A stretch of DNA of 64,000 bases, from contig JAIOXO010000001.1 in assembly GCA_022396035.1 (NCBI GenBank), positions 1 to 64,000 on the forward strand. The letters run 5' to 3'. This document shows, one piece after another, positions 5,900 to 53,385 of the stretch. This DNA comes from Actinomycetes bacterium. Its GTDB lineage: Bacteria > Actinomycetota > Humimicrobiia > Humimicrobiales > Humimicrobiaceae. The translations under genes were made by a program, and so were the position numbers. The stretch's first letter is position 1, and every line of letters begins with the position of its first letter. The notes under the pieces were generated by a model. The model worked only from the letters and a program-made list of their open reading frames with translations. It did no database searches and was not told the DNA's origin.

Positions 5900-6670
5900 T
5901 TACTGCTGCCGGTTAAAAAGAATGGTTCCAGCCAGACTAGCCGCAACTGCCAGGCACAGAAGCACCAGCACATCTATCCATAAAGGGAAAACCTGCATAG
6001 TGGAATCCCGCAGCATTACATACCTGATAGCATCAATGCCGTAGGTCAGGGGGTTAATCTTGGATAAGAAAACCATCCACTGGGGGGCATCTATTAAGGG
6101 GAATATTGCTCCTGATAAAAAGAACATGGGCATAAGTAAAAAATTAGTAATAACCTGAAAACCCTGCATGGTTTTTATAACTGAAGCCAGGAGAATTCCA
6201 AATGAAGATATGGTGATTGCTACCAAAAGCATCAGCCCAAAGGATTGGAGTATAGCCATAGGAGTTAGCGTATGGCTCAGCAGAGGAGAAAACAATAAAA
6301 TTATAGCGCCCTGAATGATAGCTATAGTTGAACTGCCTAAAATCTTACCTACCACTATGGATGTCCTGGATACTGGAGAAACCAGCACTTCCTTTAAAAA
6401 CCCAAACTCACGATCCCAGACTATGGACATTGCCCCGAAAAATGAAGTAAAAAGTACAGTCATTCCCACAATACCGGGAAACATAAAATTCAAATAATCG
6501 TCTCCCCGGCTGCTTCCAAAGAAAGCAAATGAACTGGCCAGGCCACTGCCCAGTACCAGCAGGAACAGGATCGGCTGGGCAAAAGAACCGATTATCCGGG
6601 GCTTGTCTCTATAGTATCTTTTTATGTCCCTTAGCCATATGGTGTATATGCCTAAAATTTCTTTATTCAT
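5900..6670 (-). CDS. ABC-2 type transporter permease (DrrB-like)
   Basis: Integral membrane permease of about six predicted helices, 256 aa, typical for DrrB/ABC2 exporters. A conserved cytoplasmic segment (SIVWDREFGFLKEVLVSPVSR, roughly 84-104) is the ABC-2 family signature. Gene order is ATPase then permease, 8 bp apart, so the two form one exporter for drugs, lipids or polysaccharide. No accessory protein indicates the cargo. The operon has its own promoter at 7707-7734. Confidence 0.9.
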   Translation of the reverse strand: MNKEILGIYTIWLRDIKRYYRDKPRIIGSFAQPILFLLVLGSGLASSFAFFGSSRGDDYLNFMFPGIVGMTVLFTSFFGAMSIVWDREFGFLKEVLVSPVSRTSIVVGKILGSSTIAIIQGAIILLFSPLLSHTLTPMAILQSFGLMLLVAITISSFGILLASVIKTMQGFQVITNFLLMPMFFLSGAIFPLIDAPQWMVFLSKINPLTYGIDAIRYVMLRDSTMQVFPLWIDVLVLLCLAVAASLAGTILFNRQQ

Positions 6671-6678
6671 AATATTAA

Positions 6679-7662
6679 TTAATGCCTCATTCTGTTTCTT
6701 GCACTTAGCCTGAACTCATCTTTGCTGCTTACGGTTTCCTCCCTTATCTCCCTGCCGGTCAAATGCAAAAACACATCATTTAATGTAGGTTTCCGGGAGC
6801 TTATGGATAATATTTCTACCGGGCTTTTTTTGATAAATTCCGGAACAAAACTGGAGCTGTCTTCAACTTCAAACTTCATCTGGCCCTGGGAGCCGTATTC
6901 TATCTCTTTGTGTAGGGTATCAGTTATGAAAGCCTTCAATTTCCCGTCATCGGCCGAACTTACAGTAATAATATCTCCGCCAATGCTCTTCTTGAGGTTA
7001 TCCGGGGTATCCAGGGCTATTATTTTTCCATAATCTATAATAGCTATACGGTTGCAAATTTCTGTTTCATCCATATAGTGAGTGGTAAGGAAAATGGTTA
7101 TATCCGTACTCTTTTTTAACTCAATTATATAATCCCATATCCTGTTCCTGGTCTGAGGGTCCAAACCCAGTGTAGGTTCATCCAGAAACAACACTTGGGG
7201 ATAATGCAGCAGGCCCCTGGCAATTTCCAGCCTCCTTCTCATGCCCCCGGAAAAAGTCCTTACCAGATCATTTTTCCGGTTAGCCAGGTTAACCATTTTT
7301 AGGACCCCATCTATTCTTTCTTTTATCAATTTACGGGGCATATTGTAAAGAAGAGCATGGAAATAAAGGTTCTCATGCGCAGTAAGGCGGTCATCCAGGG
7401 TAGGATCCTGAAAAACAAGTCCAATGCAATTCCTGATTGCATTTCTCTGTTTTTCCACATCTTTGCCGCATAGAGTGACACTGCCCCGGCTTTTGTTTAA
7501 AAGGGTGCAAATAATATTAATGGTAGTGGTTTTCCCGGCACCATTGGGACCCAAAAAGCCAAAAATCTCGCCTCTTTTTACCTCAAATGAAATATTGTCT
7601 ACCGCTTTAATTTTGCCGAAACTTTTGGATAAATCCTTAACCTTTATTATGCTCTCAGCCAT
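6679..7662 (-). CDS. ABC transporter ATP-binding protein (DrrA-like)
   Basis: Cytoplasmic ATPase with Walker A GPNGAGKTT (about residues 38-46), signature FSGGMRRRLEIA, Walker B LFLDEPTLGLDP and the switch histidine in LTTHYMDE. At 327 aa it has the C-terminal extension of the daunorubicin-resistance (DrrA) subfamily. It is paired with the ABC-2 permease that follows. No strong ribosome-binding site precedes the ATG. The start is kept because the domain begins right after it (IIKVKDLSKSFG). Confidence 0.93.
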   Translation of the reverse strand: MAESIIKVKDLSKSFGKIKAVDNISFEVKRGEIFGFLGPNGAGKTTTINIICTLLNKSRGSVTLCGKDVEKQRNAIRNCIGLVFQDPTLDDRLTAHENLYFHALLYNMPRKLIKERIDGVLKMVNLANRKNDLVRTFSGGMRRRLEIARGLLHYPQVLFLDEPTLGLDPQTRNRIWDYIIELKKSTDITIFLTTHYMDETEICNRIAIIDYGKIIALDTPDNLKKSIGGDIITVSSADDGKLKAFITDTLHKEIEYGSQGQMKFEVEDSSSFVPEFIKKSPVEILSISSRKPTLNDVFLHLTGREIREETVSSKDEFRLSARNRMRH

Positions 7663-7703: not shown

Positions 7704-7734
7704 AGGATTATATCCTTTTTAAACTCTTTATCAA
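7704..7734 (-). promoter_or_regulatory. Promoter of the ABC exporter with overlapping palindrome
   Basis: Minus-strand TTGATA (7729-7734) and TATAAT (7707-7712) are spaced 16 bp apart. The -10 box sits inside a perfect inverted repeat, AAGGAT-N3-ATCCTT (7704-7718), a geometry expected for a repressor operator. This separates transcription of the exporter from the heliorhodopsin gene upstream. Confidence 0.55.
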
Positions 7735-7791: not shown

Positions 7792-8586
7792 TTACTGGGG
7801 TTGCATGGTTCCCGCAAAAACCAGCCAGGCCAGCAGAGTTTTAGCCACCAGGCTCAGTATTATGTAACCTCTTTCGCCATAAAGATAGTCTCTCCATCTG
7901 CCAATCTTTTTGTACTGCAGAACCATGTTAATGGGAAAAAGATTAAAAAATACAAAATAGGAACCAAAGATAGCATATACAAACCACGGTATCTGGCTAA
8001 AATTGCCTCCCCCCAAAAAATACATCAGTATTATGGCCCAGGGAACAACTCCGGCGAAACTGCCAATTATAAAAGATATCCAGTTGGTTTTACCGGTAGT
8101 CTGGTTATGGATCTCCATGGACAGGCCGCAGAGGTTCATGGTGGCATTAAGGCCGATTATCAATATAATGCTTCCCAGATCATAAACCCCGAAAAGCATG
8201 GCAATAATTACAATCATCACCGATGAACTCAAGGCATATTCAAACCATCTGAAATAATTTATCCCTTTGTTCAGTCTTTGGTTATAAAAAGAATTAATTC
8301 CGGGCAGTACCACCAAAAAATGGGCGATAGCAGACAGAAACAGGAATATGGAAACCATAACCCCGATTGGTATATTGCCTATATTATTGGTGTCTGTTAC
8401 CAATCTCTGCGCGCTGGTATCATAAGTTAGAAATGATACTGTAAAGGGAAGCCTAAAGTCCTTTATATTGGTAATAGTTAAACCCATAACCAACATCAGG
8501 ACCGCCTGGACAAAATGAATTACCGCCATTGCCCCGTTAAAACGGCGCAGATAACCGAAACTAATTCTGGAAGCTGGAGATTGCAT
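7792..8586 (-). CDS. Heliorhodopsin
   Basis: Seven-helix retinal protein of the heliorhodopsin family, 264 aa. The C-terminal helix carries the family hallmark SLVAKTLLAW with the retinal Schiff-base lysine K249. The expected carboxylate counterion is E116 in FRWFEYALSSSVMI. Histidines H24 and H89 fit the conserved polar residues near the retinal pocket. Further heliorhodopsin-like stretches are LNATMNLCGLSMEIHNQ and LYGERGYIILS. Family members have inverted membrane topology (N terminus inside) and no demonstrated ion pumping in most cases; a sensory or regulatory role is suspected. The start has a GGGGGAA ribosome-binding site. The upstream neighbours are a coiled-coil protein and MscL. No retinal-synthesis gene is in the window. 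Confidence 0.93.
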   Translation of the reverse strand: MQSPASRISFGYLRRFNGAMAVIHFVQAVLMLVMGLTITNIKDFRLPFTVSFLTYDTSAQRLVTDTNNIGNIPIGVMVSIFLFLSAIAHFLVVLPGINSFYNQRLNKGINYFRWFEYALSSSVMIVIIAMLFGVYDLGSIILIIGLNATMNLCGLSMEIHNQTTGKTNWISFIIGSFAGVVPWAIILMYFLGGGNFSQIPWFVYAIFGSYFVFFNLFPINMVLQYKKIGRWRDYLYGERGYIILSLVAKTLLAWLVFAGTMQPQ

Positions 8587-8605
8587 AATTTCCCCCGTTA
8601 AAATA

Positions 8606-8634
8606 ATTATATTTATAATATATTAATATAAAAA
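8606..8634 (-). promoter_or_regulatory. Possible promoter of the heliorhodopsin gene
   Basis: The 81 bp upstream of the heliorhodopsin gene are almost pure A+T. A consensus TATAAT lies at 8606-8611 on the minus strand, with only a poor -35 (TTTTTA) 17 bp upstream. The gene may be transcribed from here, by read-through from mscL, or both. Confidence 0.35.
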
Positions 8635-8667
8635 CAAGTATATTGAAATAAGAAAAAAAATGAGGGT

Positions 8668-8877
8668 TCAATATCTATTATGGTTTTCTTTTTTCCGGTG
8701 GTCAGCTATCCTTTTCCTGGCTTTTTTTATCTTGGCTTCCAGATCTTTTATCCGCTTTTTAAATTTTTTCCCAGCCTCTTCTTCAGAATTATTAGCCTCT
8801 TCCCTTAGCGACTCGAGCTCTTCTTCCCAGTCATAGATATATTCCTCGAGCTGCTCCAAATTGTTTTCTTTTCCCAT
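8668..8877 (-). CDS. Small charged coiled-coil protein
   Basis: The 69-aa product is almost entirely Glu, Lys, Arg and Leu in heptad-like spacing (for example LEQLEEYIYDWEEELESL and KKRIKDLEAKIKKARKRI), predicting one or two long coiled-coil helices and no membrane segment. GAGGA precedes the ATG. It lies 73 bp downstream of mscL and 81 bp upstream of the heliorhodopsin gene on the same strand. I do not recognise the family. An adaptor role for either membrane neighbour is only a guess. Confidence 0.75.
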   Translation of the reverse strand: MGKENNLEQLEEYIYDWEEELESLREEANNSEEEAGKKFKKRIKDLEAKIKKARKRIADHRKKENHNRY

Positions 8878-8950: not shown

Positions 8951-9400
8951 TTATTTAAGCTCTGAAGTACAATGGGGACAGCGCGTGGCTTCTATGTTAA
9001 TAACACTCTGGCAGTAAGGGCACTTCTTGCTGCTAGGCTGGCTGGGCTTCTCCTCTTCTTTTCTCCTGAAACTGTTTATACCTTTAATTATGAAGAAAAG
9101 TACTACAGCTACAATAACAAACACTATAATACTGTTTATAAATACACCATAATTAATAGTTACAGCCCCTGCTTCCGTGGCTTCAATTAGGGTGCTGTAT
9201 GGACCAGGAGTTGCGCCCTGCCTTAAAACAAAAAATATGTTACTAAAATCAGTTCCTCCCAGGAGCCAGCCGATAAAAGGCATAAGTATGTCCTTTACCA
9301 TTGAATTGACAATAGCGGTAAAAGCAGAGCCTATTACAATACCTACCGCTAAATCTACAACACTTCCCCTTAAAATGAACTCTTTTAACTCCTTTTTCAT
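8951..9400 (-). CDS. mscL: Large-conductance mechanosensitive channel with C-terminal zinc ribbon
   Basis: MscL forms a pentameric pore that opens under membrane tension to release solutes during osmotic downshock. The N-terminal helix and first transmembrane segment (about residues 4-45, including FILRGSVVDLAVGIVIG) match the family closely; the second membrane segment is about 86-106. Unlike E. coli MscL, the cytoplasmic tail ends in a rubredoxin-like zinc ribbon with C127, C130, C141 and C144 (CPYC and CPHC). GGAGAG precedes the ATG. Such tails occur in some other bacterial MscL proteins; their role is unclear. Confidence 0.95.
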   Translation of the reverse strand: MKKELKEFILRGSVVDLAVGIVIGSAFTAIVNSMVKDILMPFIGWLLGGTDFSNIFFVLRQGATPGPYSTLIEATEAGAVTINYGVFINSIIVFVIVAVVLFFIIKGINSFRRKEEEKPSQPSSKKCPYCQSVINIEATRCPHCTSELK

Positions 9401-13299: not shown

Positions 13300-14784
13300 A
13301 TGAAAAAGAAAATACTTATGGTTTACCCCAGATATGATGAGACTTTTTGGAGTTTTAAAAAGGTTTTGAAAATAATTAATAAAGAGTCGGCTTTCCCGCC
13401 ATTGGGCCTGCTTACGGTATCTGCCATGTTACCCGCTGACTGGGAAAAGAAAATACTGGACCTTAACTTTGAAAACCTGACCGAGCAGGACATATTATGG
13501 GCTGATTATGTATTTATCAGTGCCATGATTGTACAGAAGCTTTCTTCAGACCAAGTTATACAGAAAGTACAGCAACTGGGCAAACCGGTGGTGGCAGGAG
13601 GACCCCTGTTTACTACCGGCTGGGAGAACTACACCCATGTTGATCACCTGTTTATAGGAGAATCTGAACATACTATTAAAGATTTTATAGAAGATGTCAG
13701 ACAGGACAAAGTCAAGGATAGATATGAATGTGATTCATTCCCCGATATAGAGACTTCTCCCATACCTGATTGGGAACAGATTGACATTACAAAATATAAT
13801 TCACTATGCATCCAGTTTTCAAGGGGATGCCCATTTAACTGCGAGTTCTGTGATATCGTAAAACTTAATGGAAGAGTCCCCAGGACTAAATCCAGCCAGC
13901 AGATTATTGATGAACTGGATACTATTTATGCTAAAGGCTATAGAGGCGGAATATTCTTTGTAGACGATAATTTTATAGGCAATAAGGGAAAACTCAAAAG
14001 AGAGCATCTGCCGGCCATTATACAATGGCAGAAGCAAAGGAAGTATCCCTTTGCCTTTAATACCCAGGTATCCATTAACCTGGCCGATGACCAGGAGCTT
14101 ATGCAGCTTATGTCTGATGCCGGATTTACCGCGGTATTTGTAGGAATTGAAACCCCCGATCCTGCCGGCCTGGCAGAATGCAGTAAATACCAGAACCAGA
14201 ACCGGGACCTTATAGAATCAGTCCAAACCCTCCAGAAGGCAGGGTTTGAGGTTCAGGGTGGTTTTATAGTAGGATTTGACAGTGACACCCCCAGTATTTT
14301 CCAGTCACAGATTGATTTTATACAGAAAAGCGGAATTGTTACCGCCATGGTTGGAGTGCTCACTGCCCTTCCCAAAACCAGGCTGTACCAGAGGCTTAAA
14401 GAAACTAAAAGATTGATCGGAGATACTGCTGCCAACAATACCAATACTTTATCTCTTAATTTTGTTCCCAAAATGGGAAAACAGGCACTGATTGACGGAT
14501 ACCAGAAAATAGTTGAAAATATCTATTCACCCCAGCAGTATTATGAAAGAATTAAAATCTTTATTACCAATTACAAGACTCCCCATAGAGGCCTCCAGAA
14601 ATTAAGGATTTATCACATAAAAGCTTTTTTTGCTTCATTATGGTTGCTGGGCATAAAAGATAAGGGCAGAAGATATTTCTGGAAACTGATGGCATGGAGC
14701 CTGTTTAAGCATCCTACCAAATTACCCTATGCCATAGGCTTTTCCCTTACCGGCATACATTTTAGATCCGTATTTACCTACTAA
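13300..14784 (+). CDS. B12-binding-type radical SAM protein (DUF4070 group)
   Basis: The 494-aa enzyme has an N-terminal Rossmann-like domain of the cobalamin-binding type (about 1-130; no DxHxxG motif), a radical SAM core with RGCPFNCEFC (C177, C181, C184) binding the 4Fe-4S cluster, and a C-terminal helical region like DUF4070. This layout matches the group containing the hopanoid C-2 methylase HpnP and several uncharacterised methylases. Methylation or another radical reaction on a lipid-like substrate is plausible. Hopanoid genes are not in the window, so no gene name is given. Confidence 0.85.
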   Translation: MKKKILMVYPRYDETFWSFKKVLKIINKESAFPPLGLLTVSAMLPADWEKKILDLNFENLTEQDILWADYVFISAMIVQKLSSDQVIQKVQQLGKPVVAGGPLFTTGWENYTHVDHLFIGESEHTIKDFIEDVRQDKVKDRYECDSFPDIETSPIPDWEQIDITKYNSLCIQFSRGCPFNCEFCDIVKLNGRVPRTKSSQQIIDELDTIYAKGYRGGIFFVDDNFIGNKGKLKREHLPAIIQWQKQRKYPFAFNTQVSINLADDQELMQLMSDAGFTAVFVGIETPDPAGLAECSKYQNQNRDLIESVQTLQKAGFEVQGGFIVGFDSDTPSIFQSQIDFIQKSGIVTAMVGVLTALPKTRLYQRLKETKRLIGDTAANNTNTLSLNFVPKMGKQALIDGYQKIVENIYSPQQYYERIKIFITNYKTPHRGLQKLRIYHIKAFFASLWLLGIKDKGRRYFWKLMAWSLFKHPTKLPYAIGFSLTGIHFRSVFTY

Positions 14785-17279: not shown

Positions 17280-18023
17280 TTAATTCATAAAAACGGTAGT
17301 AACTACCCTTCGGTTTCCATTTTCTGCCAGGCCTATGCCTATCTGTCCGTATGCATCCCTCAAAATATTTGCCCTGTGGGTGGAACTGTTCATCCAGGCA
17401 TTGGCAAAAACTCCCGGGCTTCCGGCTGAAGCTGGTTGAGCATGAGCCAGGTTTTCTCCGGCATTCCTGTAAGTTATGCCATAGCCCTGAAGTATATTAA
17501 AAATATTTGTACCTTCCGGAGTATAATGAGAGAAATATCCCCTGGAGAGCATGTCAGCACTCCTGGACCTGGCAATATCGGTTAAAGCCTGGGAAGCTAC
17601 CAGCGGGCTTAAGCCATTGGCTACCCTGATATTATTAATCTCGGCCAGTATCTGCTGCTCGTAACCATTAAGGTTTACCCCCTGTGAAGGCGCCTGGGCT
17701 GGCTGCTGCTGCACAACATCACCAGAGCTGCCCATTACTTCTGCTTTCTGGCTGTTCTCCTGAATGTAGTAGTCCAGATTGTTGCCTATTTTAGTCAATA
17801 AGGCCTCAGCCTCAGGGCCAAAGCTGTTACTATATTTAACTTCAGCTACCGTTGACTCTAGATCCCTAGCTGCTCCGGTTACTGTGGTGCTGGTATTTTC
17901 TGTTAACCTGTTAACCTGTACCCTGTTGGTAAAACTGGTTATTGCTAAAAAAGATGCAAACAGCGCCATTACTGCCAACACTGTAACCGACATGGTTAAT
18001 AACTTTTTTGTTTTCTTTTTCAT
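17280..18023 (-). CDS. Membrane-anchored CAP (SCP/PR1) domain protein
   Basis: An N-terminal transmembrane segment (about 9-30) is followed by a low-complexity linker and a C-terminal CAP domain (about 123-247) with typical motifs: LAEINNIRVANGLSPL, YFSHYTPEGTNIF, YRNAGENLAH and AWMNSSTHRANIL. Bacterial CAP proteins are extracytoplasmic and often linked to spores, cell wall or lipid binding. Histidines in SHYTPEG and STHRANI fit the family cavity. The gene sits behind a structured leader ending in an intrinsic terminator, so it is probably controlled by transcription attenuation. Confidence 0.9.
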   Translation of the reverse strand: MKKKTKKLLTMSVTVLAVMALFASFLAITSFTNRVQVNRLTENTSTTVTGAARDLESTVAEVKYSNSFGPEAEALLTKIGNNLDYYIQENSQKAEVMGSSGDVVQQQPAQAPSQGVNLNGYEQQILAEINNIRVANGLSPLVASQALTDIARSRSADMLSRGYFSHYTPEGTNIFNILQGYGITYRNAGENLAHAQPASAGSPGVFANAWMNSSTHRANILRDAYGQIGIGLAENGNRRVVTTVFMN

Positions 18024-18072: not shown

Positions 18073-18102
18073 ATTAATTTATTACTTATTTTGAATGAAA
18101 AA

Positions 18103-18182
18103 AGTAATAGCCGGTTGCACCACTGGCTCCCTGCAATTTAAGGTGCCCAAATTACGAATTGCAGATCTTAGCCTCTATTACT
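18103..18182 (-). ncRNA. Candidate riboswitch aptamer upstream of the CAP-domain gene
   Basis: A three-way-junction fold is visible on the minus strand. P1 joins 18177-18182 with 18103-18108. P2 (8 bp) joins 18157-18164 with 18131-18138. P3 joins 18125-18128 with 18109-18112. The P2 loop (18142-18146) and P3 loop (18117-18121) are complementary over five bases (GCACC/GGTGC), allowing a kissing interaction. The element at 18168-18177 is complementary over 10 nt to the terminator region 18057-18066, and the 3' strand of P1 can instead pair with 18081-18087. It matches no riboswitch class that I recognise, including purine, c-di-GMP, c-di-AMP, SAM and cobalamin types. Confidence 0.55.
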
Positions 18183-18316
18183 AAAATAGACTTATTTAAA
18201 TTTCAATTAAACTATCAATACTTATTACGATTCTAATAATAATATATTAAGGCATATATGTCAACATTAATTTTAAGATTGTTGTTATTATTTAAGTTAT
18301 AATACTTTTATAATTA

Positions 18317-36781: not shown

Positions 36782-37432
36782 TTATTTGGCGTAACCGATA
36801 TGGGATAAATAATACAGAGTATGCAACAATTTTTCAATAGGATCTGTAGTCTGTATATTGATATGGGGAGGTACCTTTACCGGTACAGAAGTATAATTAA
36901 TAATTACCTTAATCCCTGAATCCACCAGCATATCGGTAACCCTCTGGGCTGAATGCGGCGGCACGGCAAGTATGGCTATCTCAATATCTTTTTCGGTTAT
37001 AATCTCTTTAATCTTATATATATCCAGGATCTTGTGCTCAGAGATAGTGGTTCCTATAACCCGGGAATCATTGTCAAAAACATTTTCAATTTTAAACCCG
37101 AAACGGTTTAACATTTTATAGTTAAGTATGGCTTTCCCCAGGTTTCCGGCACCTATGAGCACCAGCCTGACTACCTTATCATAGCCCAGTATGCGGTTAA
37201 AGGCTAATATAAGCTCATCAATATTGAAACCTACCCCTCTCTTGCCTTTAATCCCGAAATAAATAAGGTCCCTGCGAACCTCGGCACTGTTAATCTTGGT
37301 GTTACGGTTTATATCTTTGGAGGTAACCGTCCTTTTGCCCAATTCTTTCAGCTGTACAATATATTTCAGGTACTGTGAAAGACGGGAAATAACCCCCTCG
37401 GAATAAATTTTTTGCTCAATAATCTCGCTCAT
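36782..37432 (-). CDS. rex: Redox-sensing transcriptional repressor Rex
   Basis: Rex senses the NADH/NAD+ ratio and represses fermentation and respiratory genes when NADH is low. The 216-aa protein has an N-terminal winged helix (RLSQYLKYIVQLKELGKRTVTS, YFGIKGKRGVGFNIDEL) and a Rossmann domain with LIGAGNLGKAILNY. GGAGAG is about 9 bp before the ATG. A Rex-like operator overlaps its own promoter, suggesting autoregulation. It is the first gene of a unit containing the LCP gene. Confidence 0.96.
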   Translation of the reverse strand: MSEIIEQKIYSEGVISRLSQYLKYIVQLKELGKRTVTSKDINRNTKINSAEVRRDLIYFGIKGKRGVGFNIDELILAFNRILGYDKVVRLVLIGAGNLGKAILNYKMLNRFGFKIENVFDNDSRVIGTTISEHKILDIYKIKEIITEKDIEIAILAVPPHSAQRVTDMLVDSGIKVIINYTSVPVKVPPHINIQTTDPIEKLLHTLYYLSHIGYAK

Positions 37433-50946: not shown

Positions 50947-51614
50947 ATTACTTCCATGGGCAGCAGAAGTTTGCCTTCATCTGCTATAAACATCTCCTGT
51001 TTGACCACGGAATAAATATTTACATTATATTTTTCAGCAATACCTGTAAAATAATCATAGAAATAATTATATTTAAATATTGCATTATTTTTCTTTTTAA
51101 AGATTTTAACATAACCATACAAATTTAGTAGGTACAAATTATCATGAACCGGCTCTATGGCCAACTCATACAGGGTTTTGCCTATATCATCCACATCCTG
51201 AATATCATTGTTTAAGATTTCCTCCAGGCTGCAGCCACTCTCAGGCAGCTTTAGCTGGAAACGATACAGGACTATGCCAATATCTGCCATAAGGCTGCCA
51301 ATCTTCCGGGTTATAGCCTTTGACTGCTGTACTTCAAGCTGCGGCTTTAACTGAGAATTCAGCTTGATTTTAAAATCCTCTGGGTCCATGCGCTCACTTA
51401 AGGCTGCATCACCATATTCGGCAACGCTCTCCACTCCCAGGGGGGTAGGATGGCTGAAACTCAGCCTGGGTTTGGGGTTAAAGCCCTGGCTGTACTCCAG
51501 ATTTATTTGAGCCCTCTCCATGGCCCTGATTATAAAGCGGGTAATATCCAGGTGAGACAGATACTTAAATTCACCTGTTTTGGTAAACTTGAACCTGATC
51601 TGATTATTTTTCAT
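50943..51614 (-). CDS. TIGR03936 (DUF2344) radical SAM-associated protein
   Basis: The 223-aa protein begins IRFKFTKTGEFKYLSHLDITRFIIRAMERA and includes YSQGFNPKPRLSFSHPTPLGVES, both diagnostic of the family. It always follows or is fused to the TIGR03960 radical SAM protein. Function unknown; an RNA or ribosome-linked modification is often suspected from the rng neighbourhood. Overlaps of 11 bp and 4 bp with its neighbours imply coupled translation. Confidence 0.93.
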   Translation of the reverse strand: MKNNQIRFKFTKTGEFKYLSHLDITRFIIRAMERAQINLEYSQGFNPKPRLSFSHPTPLGVESVAEYGDAALSERMDPEDFKIKLNSQLKPQLEVQQSKAITRKIGSLMADIGIVLYRFQLKLPESGCSLEEILNNDIQDVDDIGKTLYELAIEPVHDNLYLLNLYGYVKIFKKKNNAIFKYNYFYDYFTGIAEKYNVNIYSVVKQEMFIADEGKLLLPMEVI

Positions 51615-53385
51615 AGCCCCCGGCTTTCCTGTATTGGCTTAATAAAAATTTTTTAGAAATCCCTATGTCCACCACATCCCAGGGAAGAATTTCCTGCAAC
51701 CCGTAATGCCTGGAGGAGTAGAAATCCATACCCAGGTGACTGTTTTCAAACGCCTGCTGCCATAAACTGAAATCAAACACATCAGTCCAATTGTCAAATC
51801 TTGCACCCAGCCTCCATGCTTCTTCCACTGCATCAGCTACCCGGATATCACCCCTGGACATAACTGCTTCCAGCTTGCTTTTATTAAAATCATTCCAGTG
51901 AAGTTTTACTATTTTCCTGGGAAGCCTGCTGGCAATCATGGATATTTTTTCAGCCAATGCCTCCGGATGGTCCAGGGGTACCCACTGGAAGGGAGTAAAG
52001 GGTTTAGGTACCAGGGCATTTATGGAAACCGATACATTAAGCCTTCTATACTTCCTGGATCCCAGGGTTTTTCTACCGGTAGCAATTATGGTATTTATAA
52101 GCTGGCTGATAGCCGCTACATCATCCAGGCTTTCGAAAGGAAACCCTATCATAAAGTACAGCTTTATCTTCTCCCAGCCTTTAGAAAAGGCCAGCTCCGC
52201 ACAGTCCAGCAGCTCCTGTTCGGACATCTTCTTCCCAATAATGTTCCTCATTCTCTGGCTGCCGGCTTCCGGGGCAAAAGTCAGACCGGTTTTCCTGCCG
52301 CTGCCTATCAGTTCCGCCAGCCCCAGGCCAAAACTGTCCATCCTGAGTGAGGGCAGAGAGATTGAAATCCTTCTGTCCCGGGCATAGCTGTTTAAGGGCC
52401 CCAGCAGCTTCTCCATATCCCGGTAGTCAGAACTGGATAAGGACAGCATGGAAACTTCATCATAACCTGTACCTTTTAAGCCCTCAATGGTATCCCTGGC
52501 CAGCATATCAGCATCCCTGGATCTTACCGGACGGTAAATATTACCGGCCTGGCAAAACCTGCAGCACCGGCTGCAGCCCCTCATAATTTCAACAGCAAAA
52601 CGGTCATGCACCACCCTTATATTAGGTATGACCGGATTTTTTACTATAGGCCACCGGTCCAGGTCTTTAACTGTCCTCTTTTTTACCTTAATTTCGGGTT
52701 CAATACTTTTTATCTGGCCCCAGGGAAAATAATGTATGCTGTAAATTGAAGGCACATAAACTCCTTCAACCCGGGATAAATCTTTAAGCAGCAATTGTTT
52801 GCTCTGGCTGCCGGCCTTGTATTTCCTAATTCTTTCCAGTATCTCGGTTACAGCTTCTTCGGCCTCCCCTATAAACATAAAATCCAAAAATGGCGAAACC
52901 GGCTGGGGGTTAACTGTTGACGGACCACCGGCCGCAATCAGGGGCAGCCGCCTGTCCCTCTGGCCCGCCCTCAGTTCCAGCCCCGAAAGCTTGATCATAT
53001 TGAGCATATTGGTATACAGCAACTCATGGGCCAGGCTAAACCCTATAAAATCAAATTTATCCAGAAAAATCCGGTTTTCCAGAGAAAACAGCCTGAAACC
53101 GTTTCCGGTTAAACTCTGTTCAAAATCCGCCCAGGGAGCAAAAACTCTTTCTGCATTAAAATAAGGGTAGCGGTTTATGATTTCATAAAGGATCTGTATG
53201 CCCAGATTAGGCATACCTACCTCGTATAGGTCCGGAAAGGCCAGAGCAGCCAGGACCATATCTTCCCTTTCCTTTATCTGCTGCAGGGTTTTGCTCTTTA
53301 TTCCAACTTCATTGCCTATATACCTGCCCGGTTTCTGTATGCCTTCCAGGAGCAGCTGGAGCTGCTCAGGGGTTAAATGTTCCAT
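51604..53385 (-). CDS. TIGR03960 family B12-binding radical SAM protein
   Basis: The 593-aa protein has a B12-binding-like domain (about 45-190) and a radical SAM core with the cluster motif C271, C275, C278 (GCSRCCRFCQAG). The FAPEAGSQRMRNIIGK stretch is typical. Reaction unknown. It works as a pair with the DUF2344 protein downstream. It overlaps the rodA stop region by a few bases. Confidence 0.93.
   Translation of the reverse strand: MEHLTPEQLQLLLEGIQKPGRYIGNEVGIKSKTLQQIKEREDMVLAALAFPDLYEVGMPNLGIQILYEIINRYPYFNAERVFAPWADFEQSLTGNGFRLFSLENRIFLDKFDFIGFSLAHELLYTNMLNMIKLSGLELRAGQRDRRLPLIAAGGPSTVNPQPVSPFLDFMFIGEAEEAVTEILERIRKYKAGSQSKQLLLKDLSRVEGVYVPSIYSIHYFPWGQIKSIEPEIKVKKRTVKDLDRWPIVKNPVIPNIRVVHDRFAVEIMRGCSRCCRFCQAGNIYRPVRSRDADMLARDTIEGLKGTGYDEVSMLSLSSSDYRDMEKLLGPLNSYARDRRISISLPSLRMDSFGLGLAELIGSGRKTGLTFAPEAGSQRMRNIIGKKMSEQELLDCAELAFSKGWEKIKLYFMIGFPFESLDDVAAISQLINTIIATGRKTLGSRKYRRLNVSVSINALVPKPFTPFQWVPLDHPEALAEKISMIASRLPRKIVKLHWNDFNKSKLEAVMSRGDIRVADAVEEAWRLGARFDNWTDVFDFSLWQQAFENSHLGMDFYSSRHYGLQEILPWDVVDIGISKKFLLSQYRKAGGYEK

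Follow-up and report, generated by a model that had tools for sequence, protein, structure and literature searches.

Heliorhodopsins (HeRs) carry, on a lysine of helix 7, a retinal whose isomerisation from all-trans to 13-cis starts a slow photocycle, in most cases without ion transport (PMC9385722, PMC6951262). An earlier annotation of the locus analyzed here, made from the sequence alone (the first-pass annotation), regarded the family as having no settled function, which holds for the family as a whole; however, for three HeRs protein partners have been published, i.e., glutamine synthetase (PMC9529153), a class II photolyase, which is bound and stimulated by HeR (PMC9769723), and an ABC exporter (PMC11109279). 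In Trichococcus flocculiformis, HeR shares an operon with the photolyase gene (PMC9769723), while in Ornithinimicrobium cerasi the HeR operon contains, upstream of HeR, the genes of OmrDE, an exporter built of heterodimeric half-transporters (PMC11109279). The closest system with a solved structure is TaHeR of a Thermoplasmatales archaeon (PDB 6is6, 7u55), and the nearest relatives outside the host order are the HeRs of Lokiarchaeota (L041-L044, L068, L090), with 60-66% identity.

The DNA analyzed in this work (the window) is a stretch of 64,000 nucleotides from a genome of the order Ca. Humimicrobiales (class Ca. Humimicrobiia, Actinomycetota), which comprises 1.6 Mb in 40 contigs and is 98% complete. 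One of its genes encodes a genuine heliorhodopsin, a type-3 rhodopsin and a further member of an already known family. The protein matched PF18761 over its full length and far above the cut-off (328 bits, E 3.3e-98; cut-off 26.7) in the Pfam search that the first-pass annotation had named as a check, and it matched the NCBIfam model NF038020 (heliorhodopsin HeR) with 315 bits (curated cut-off 100). A genome-wide profile search indicated this ORF as the single PF18761 match. The coordinates, domain and residues given by the first-pass annotation were correct, but the strand was missing: the coding strand is the minus one (8586..7792), and the frame on the plus strand is interrupted by stops. 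The features of the locus are presented in Table 1.

Table 1. Features of the heliorhodopsin locus and other annotated genes of the window.
Feature	Position	Strand	Evidence or remark
ABC-2 permease of the DrrB type; likely a separate unit	5900..6670	minus	TIGR01247 239 bits, cut-off 223
ABC ATPase of the DrrA type; likely a separate unit	6679..7662	minus	TIGR01188 335 bits, cut-off 312
Promoter-like site TTGATA-16-TATAAT between HeR and drrA	7707..7734	minus	11/12 consensus matches; TATAAT conserved in G006
Heliorhodopsin (HeR) gene, 264 aa	7792..8586	minus	PF18761, NF038020, TaHeR identity, dN/dS ~0.05
K249 codon, predicted retinal Schiff-base lysine (S245-LVA-K249)	7840..7842	minus	aligns with TaHeR K238
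E116 codon, predicted counterion	8239..8241	minus	aligns with TaHeR E108
H89 codon	8320..8322	minus	aligns with TaHeR H82
H24 codon	8515..8517	minus	aligns with TaHeR H23
AT-rich spacer preceding HeR, containing GGGGGAA (ribosome-binding-like); possible promoter of HeR	8587..8667	minus	conserved in G006
69-aa charged, coiled-coil-like ORF	8668..8877	minus	conserved at 59-62% in G006
MscL with C-terminal CxxC...CxxC tail	8951..9400	minus	PF01741 137 bits
B12-radical-SAM protein	13300-14784	plus	confirmed in the window
Rex	36782-37432	minus	confirmed in the window
B12-radical-SAM protein	51604-53385	minus	confirmed in the window

In the alignment with TaHeR (6is6, with the construct offset of 6 residues taken into account), 124 of the 247 aligned residues (50%) were identical. 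The SLVAKTLLAW motif and the four residues highlighted by the first-pass annotation (K249, E116, H24 and H89) were all exact and aligned with their TaHeR counterparts; the SxxxK motif of helix 7 (S245/K249) corresponds to S234/K238 of TaHeR, and the helix 3 glutamate counterion to its E108. All four residues are invariant across 11 orthologues of Ca. Humimicrobiales. A structure predicted with AlphaFold2 from 11 sequences, moderately confident with a pLDDT averaging 67, contained seven helices and a beta-hairpin in the first extracellular loop (strands 45-56 and 61-73), as solved HeRs do, and its closest PDB folds were all solved HeRs (TM 0.73-0.80), with TaHeR as the best match (0.79-0.80) and other rhodopsins far lower. 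By the alignment, which has a six-residue gap in TaHeR, the first extracellular loop is longer in the window protein; the gene neighborhoods of the two are unrelated. Segments assigned by hand after solved HeRs carry 12 K/R residues on the cytoplasmic side versus 3 on the outside. Since the spectral residues M157, M221 and A248 match the group absorbing below 540 nm (PMC7807009), the protein is predicted to absorb green light.

HeR is present in 15 of the 35 genomes of Ca. Humimicrobiales. Among named HeRs, the closest (69-84% identity) come from Actinomycetota MAGs of this order, such as Ca. Humimicrobium oleiphilum and Ca. Calidifonticultor daggyaiensis. Placement in a heliorhodopsin tree, which the first-pass annotation had suggested, gathered the 11 orthologues of the order into one clade (SH-aLRT 98) tracking the genus groups and located it beside the Lokiarchaeotal clade (SH-aLRT 91), within HeRs of anaerobes and sediments. 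Together with the patchy presence of HeR, this topology is consistent with a gene that arose once in the order, was inherited vertically and was lost repeatedly. The HeRs of the window and of G006 showed 87% protein identity, the highest among nine genes compared, with dN of 0.08 and dS of about 1.6, the latter being near saturation; in two less diverged pairs dN/dS was 0.04-0.05, and judging by these ratios the gene is under strong purifying selection. Single in-frame stops were observed in the HeR of G030 (L024; TAA) and in a glycosyltransferase gene of G033 (C10; TAG), which are likely a sign of decay or assembly errors.

Actinomycetota are monoderm, and the occurrence of HeR in Ca. Humimicrobiales is therefore no challenge to the view that HeRs are limited to monoderms. 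This view, cited in the first-pass annotation, is that of a published survey (PMC8612252), and the host, being a member of Actinomycetota, agrees with it. HeR was also observed in three Spirochaetales genomes (L053, L055 and L056), whose proteins form one clade (98), and in a Halobacteroidaceae genome (L052); one of the Spirochaetales copies sits deep within a 230-kb Sphaerochaeta contig. Spirochaetales and Halobacteroidaceae are both diderm, and these HeRs may speak against a strict monoderm rule, if they are not contamination. The Rex and B12-radical-SAM genes noticed earlier in the window were confirmed, and the host actinobacterium is probably anaerobic.

No gene of retinal synthesis had been noticed in the window, and this observation could be extended to the whole genome and to the order. 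Phytoene/squalene synthase (PF00494), RPE65-type oxygenase (PF03055) and Blh (PF15461) were each detected in 0 of the 35 genomes, while seven control genomes were positive for the first and two for the second. As PF15461 was initially silent in the controls too, a phylum-wide search served as the control, and its 11 positives among 199 Actinomycetota genomes make the absence of Blh credible. A crtI-family desaturase exceeded the cut-off in G004 only, frames with stops were present in G031, and the crtI-family matches of the window genome were ruled out as desaturases, being short Rossmann N-termini. Among the 36 HeR-bearing public genomes from outside the order, Blh was found in none and PF00494 in eight. 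With none of the three enzymes found in the order, the retinal must be either scavenged or made by a route not yet known; scavenging is the simplest and most likely reading, and the lack of a retinal pathway in every genome of the order makes it a direct question. A rhodopsin host without a known retinal route is a situation already on record, both for Ca. Actinomarinales (PMC7771536) and for HeR-bearing Bathyarchaeota lacking essential retinal genes (PMC7110647). The absence of any known retinal or carotenoid gene from the window genome and the order could also mean that the opsin operates without retinal and senses something besides light. We regard this as very improbable: HeR co-occurs with a photolyase, hosts that have a rhodopsin but no retinal genes are documented (PMC7771536), and if no chromophore were bound it would be difficult to account for the invariance of K249, E116 and the SxxxK motif in 11 orthologues down to 67% identity.

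This photolyase is encoded in the window genome as well. It is a class II CPD enzyme (TIGR00591, 584 bits; cut-off 550), the best PDB matches of which are class II photolyases. The genome therefore resembles T. flocculiformis in combining HeR with a TIGR00591 photolyase, but, in contrast to the operon of that bacterium, HeR is localized on contig C1 and the photolyase on contig C13, with neither an operon nor linkage. The first-pass annotation implied the puzzle of a light receptor in a seemingly lightless, subsurface host; its premise that the window contains no retinal-synthesis gene stands, but the paradox becomes weaker, since this genome also encodes a repair enzyme that is driven by light.

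The distribution of the photolyase within the order is associated with that of HeR. It was found in eight genomes, every one of them HeR-positive (8/15 HeR-positive versus 0/20 HeR-negative genomes, p=2.7e-4); the genomes are related, and the test by genus gave only p=0.05. For the photolyase as for the gene pair described below, grouping by genus was the sole correction for phylogeny, and several of the MAGs are incomplete. Restricting the comparison to the 15 better genomes gave 5/7 versus 0/8 (p=0.007). Seven HeR-positive genomes, some of them incomplete, had no detected photolyase, and a fragment at a contig end in G029 (25 bits, below the cut-off) was left out of the counts. Distances of HeR and photolyase are correlated (r=0.75, permutation p=0.0025). 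Outside the order, a photolyase gene lies near HeR in Lokiarchaeota loci L068, L049, L054 and L094. As within the order the photolyase was found solely in HeR-positive genomes, these lineages probably do meet light, and HeR probably marks the members of the order that do so.

Taken at a probability of roughly 0.55, our preferred reading is that HeR serves in this order as a green-light sensor which uses scavenged retinal and acts in photoprotection, not as a pump. The protein would be an inverted seven-helix receptor binding all-trans-retinal on K249, with E116 as the counterion, and the chromophore would be acquired from phototroph detritus or neighboring microbes. Its isomerisation by green light would start a slow photocycle altering the positively charged cytoplasmic face, which, in turn, would regulate another protein. 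The foremost candidate for this role, proposed tentatively from the co-occurrence and the Trichococcus case, would be the class II CPD photolyase of the same genome.

A second group of genes with a similar distribution encodes a family 2 glycosyltransferase (GT) and a CrtO-like protein (PF18927). One or both of them were present in 12 of the 15 HeR-positive genomes versus 1 of the 20 HeR-negative ones (p=6e-6; p=0.009 when counted by genus), and in 5/7 versus 0/8 of the better genomes (n=15, p=0.007). Within genus g10, G025 alone has both HeR and GT-CrtO; in genus g4, the HeR-negative G008 (98% complete) lacks HeR, photolyase and GT-CrtO. Altogether, the photolyase or the GT/CrtO pair is present in 14 of the 15 HeR-positive genomes versus 1 of the 20 HeR-negative ones. 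In G025, G029 and G030, GT is localized 12-117 bp downstream of HeR on the same strand, and in G019 GT-CrtO follows an end fragment of HeR, which gives adjacency in four genomes of three genera. HeR and GT distances are also correlated (r=0.86, p=0.016); such correlations, for the photolyase as for GT, are as expected under shared vertical descent.

The staphyloxanthin genes of Staphylococcus include crtQ and crtO. The same succession, a family 2 GT gene and then CrtO, directly follows HeR in the sister genera, but, unlike Staphylococcus, the order has no dehydrosqualene or phytoene synthase, and the pair is absent from the window genome. In G004, a crtI-family desaturase gene (L109, G004:C343; 287 bits, cut-off 238) precedes GT and CrtO; despite it, no phytoene synthase was detected in this genome, which is 79% complete. 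GT passed no curated carotenoid-GT cut-off in the profile search. The adjacency, the co-distribution, the correlated distances and the desaturase gene ahead of GT would all be accommodated if HeR acted chiefly with the GT-CrtO pair, modifying a membrane lipid, carotenoid or retinoid by glycosylation and acylation, and if the photolyase merely shared the habitat. This is unlikely, however: neither a GT orthologue nor CrtO was found in the 98%-complete window genome, so the pair is not needed for HeR there, in most genomes it does not adjoin HeR, and the lack of a phytoene synthase leaves it without an evident substrate.

Under the light-sensor reading, the co-encoded pair of the sister genera may belong to the same HeR system. 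It can further be proposed, albeit with considerable doubt, that across Ca. Humimicrobiales HeR is the sensor of a light-exposure set (photolyase plus GT/CrtO) which is kept or lost together and needs imported retinal. Neither the HeR-photolyase co-distribution in the order nor the HeR-GT-CrtO arrangement was found in the open-licence papers examined, and in public HeR loci GT-CrtO was seen beside HeR in the order's own members only. With HeR function disputed, the order, with its small related genomes and patchy HeR, constitutes a natural experiment, in which the co-distributed photolyase and the lipid- or pigment-modifying pair are specific partners that can be named for testing.

In the window itself, HeR is flanked by the 69-aa ORF, for which the profile search indicated no family over the cut-off, and mscL on the upstream side, and by drrAB downstream; this gene order is kept in G006, while G004, G005 and other genera have different HeR neighbors. 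The Lokiarchaeotal relatives also differ in this respect, having photolyase, Staygreen-family and ATP10-like genes near HeR, not MscL/DrrAB. Since drrAB lies behind HeR on the same strand in both the window and G006, and since the Ornithinimicrobium HeR upregulates an ABC exporter (PMC11109279), light modulation of the adjacent DrrAB ABC-2 exporter could be considered, by analogy with the action of OcHeR on OmrDE, whose gene pair likewise adjoins HeR. Several observations make it improbable. OmrDE is a different type of exporter, encoded upstream of HeR and not matched in the window, whereas DrrAB consists of a separate ATPase and permease, is encoded downstream and has its own promoter-like site. 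The conservation of HeR-drrAB in G006 is unspecific, because the entire surrounding block is syntenic there, and drrAB is not beside HeR in G004, G005 or the other genera. Finally, HeR and drrA are separated by a 129-bp spacer, and the promoter-like site in it suggests a transcript of drrAB alone; in G006, conservation extends to the spacer upstream of HeR but, apart from the TATAAT box, not to the downstream one. HeR is thus probably transcribed apart from drrAB. DrrAB/MscL was ruled out as a conserved HeR operon, the block being common to G006 only and the spacer containing a conserved -10 box.

The C-terminal tail of the window's MscL is zinc-ribbon-like (CPYCQ...CPHC), which is unusual for this protein. 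Elsewhere in the window, the minus strand carries a c-di-GMP-II riboswitch (RF01786, 79.6 bits) at positions 18100-18185, a short distance upstream of the gene at 17280-18023.

Some further HeR neighbors were observed in other lineages. In nine Asgard loci (L041, L042, L044, L054, L068, L079, L086, L090 and L091), a gene of the Staygreen family, i.e., the chlorophyll Mg-dechelatase family (PF12638), is localized 0-4.1 kb from HeR, and in L042 and L044 it overlaps HeR or sits 145 bp downstream. The family was assigned by PF12638 in L068 (166 bits), and the other eight genes were found from the L068 protein by phmmer; no paper linking Staygreen to heliorhodopsin came up in a search of open-licence papers. 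A Band_7/SPFH gene follows HeR after 227 bp on the same strand in L027/L039 (Ca. Calidifonticultor) and lies 120 bp from it on the opposite strand in L055 (Sphaerochaeta), for which the flotillin-associated rhodopsins (PMC10308929) offer a comparison. An ATP10-like (PF05176) protein is encoded near HeR in eleven loci (L041, L043, L049, L054, L070, L076, L079, L085, L086, L090 and L094), which belong to Asgard genomes and one Anaerolineales genome; in L070 its gene is localized 44 bp upstream of HeR.
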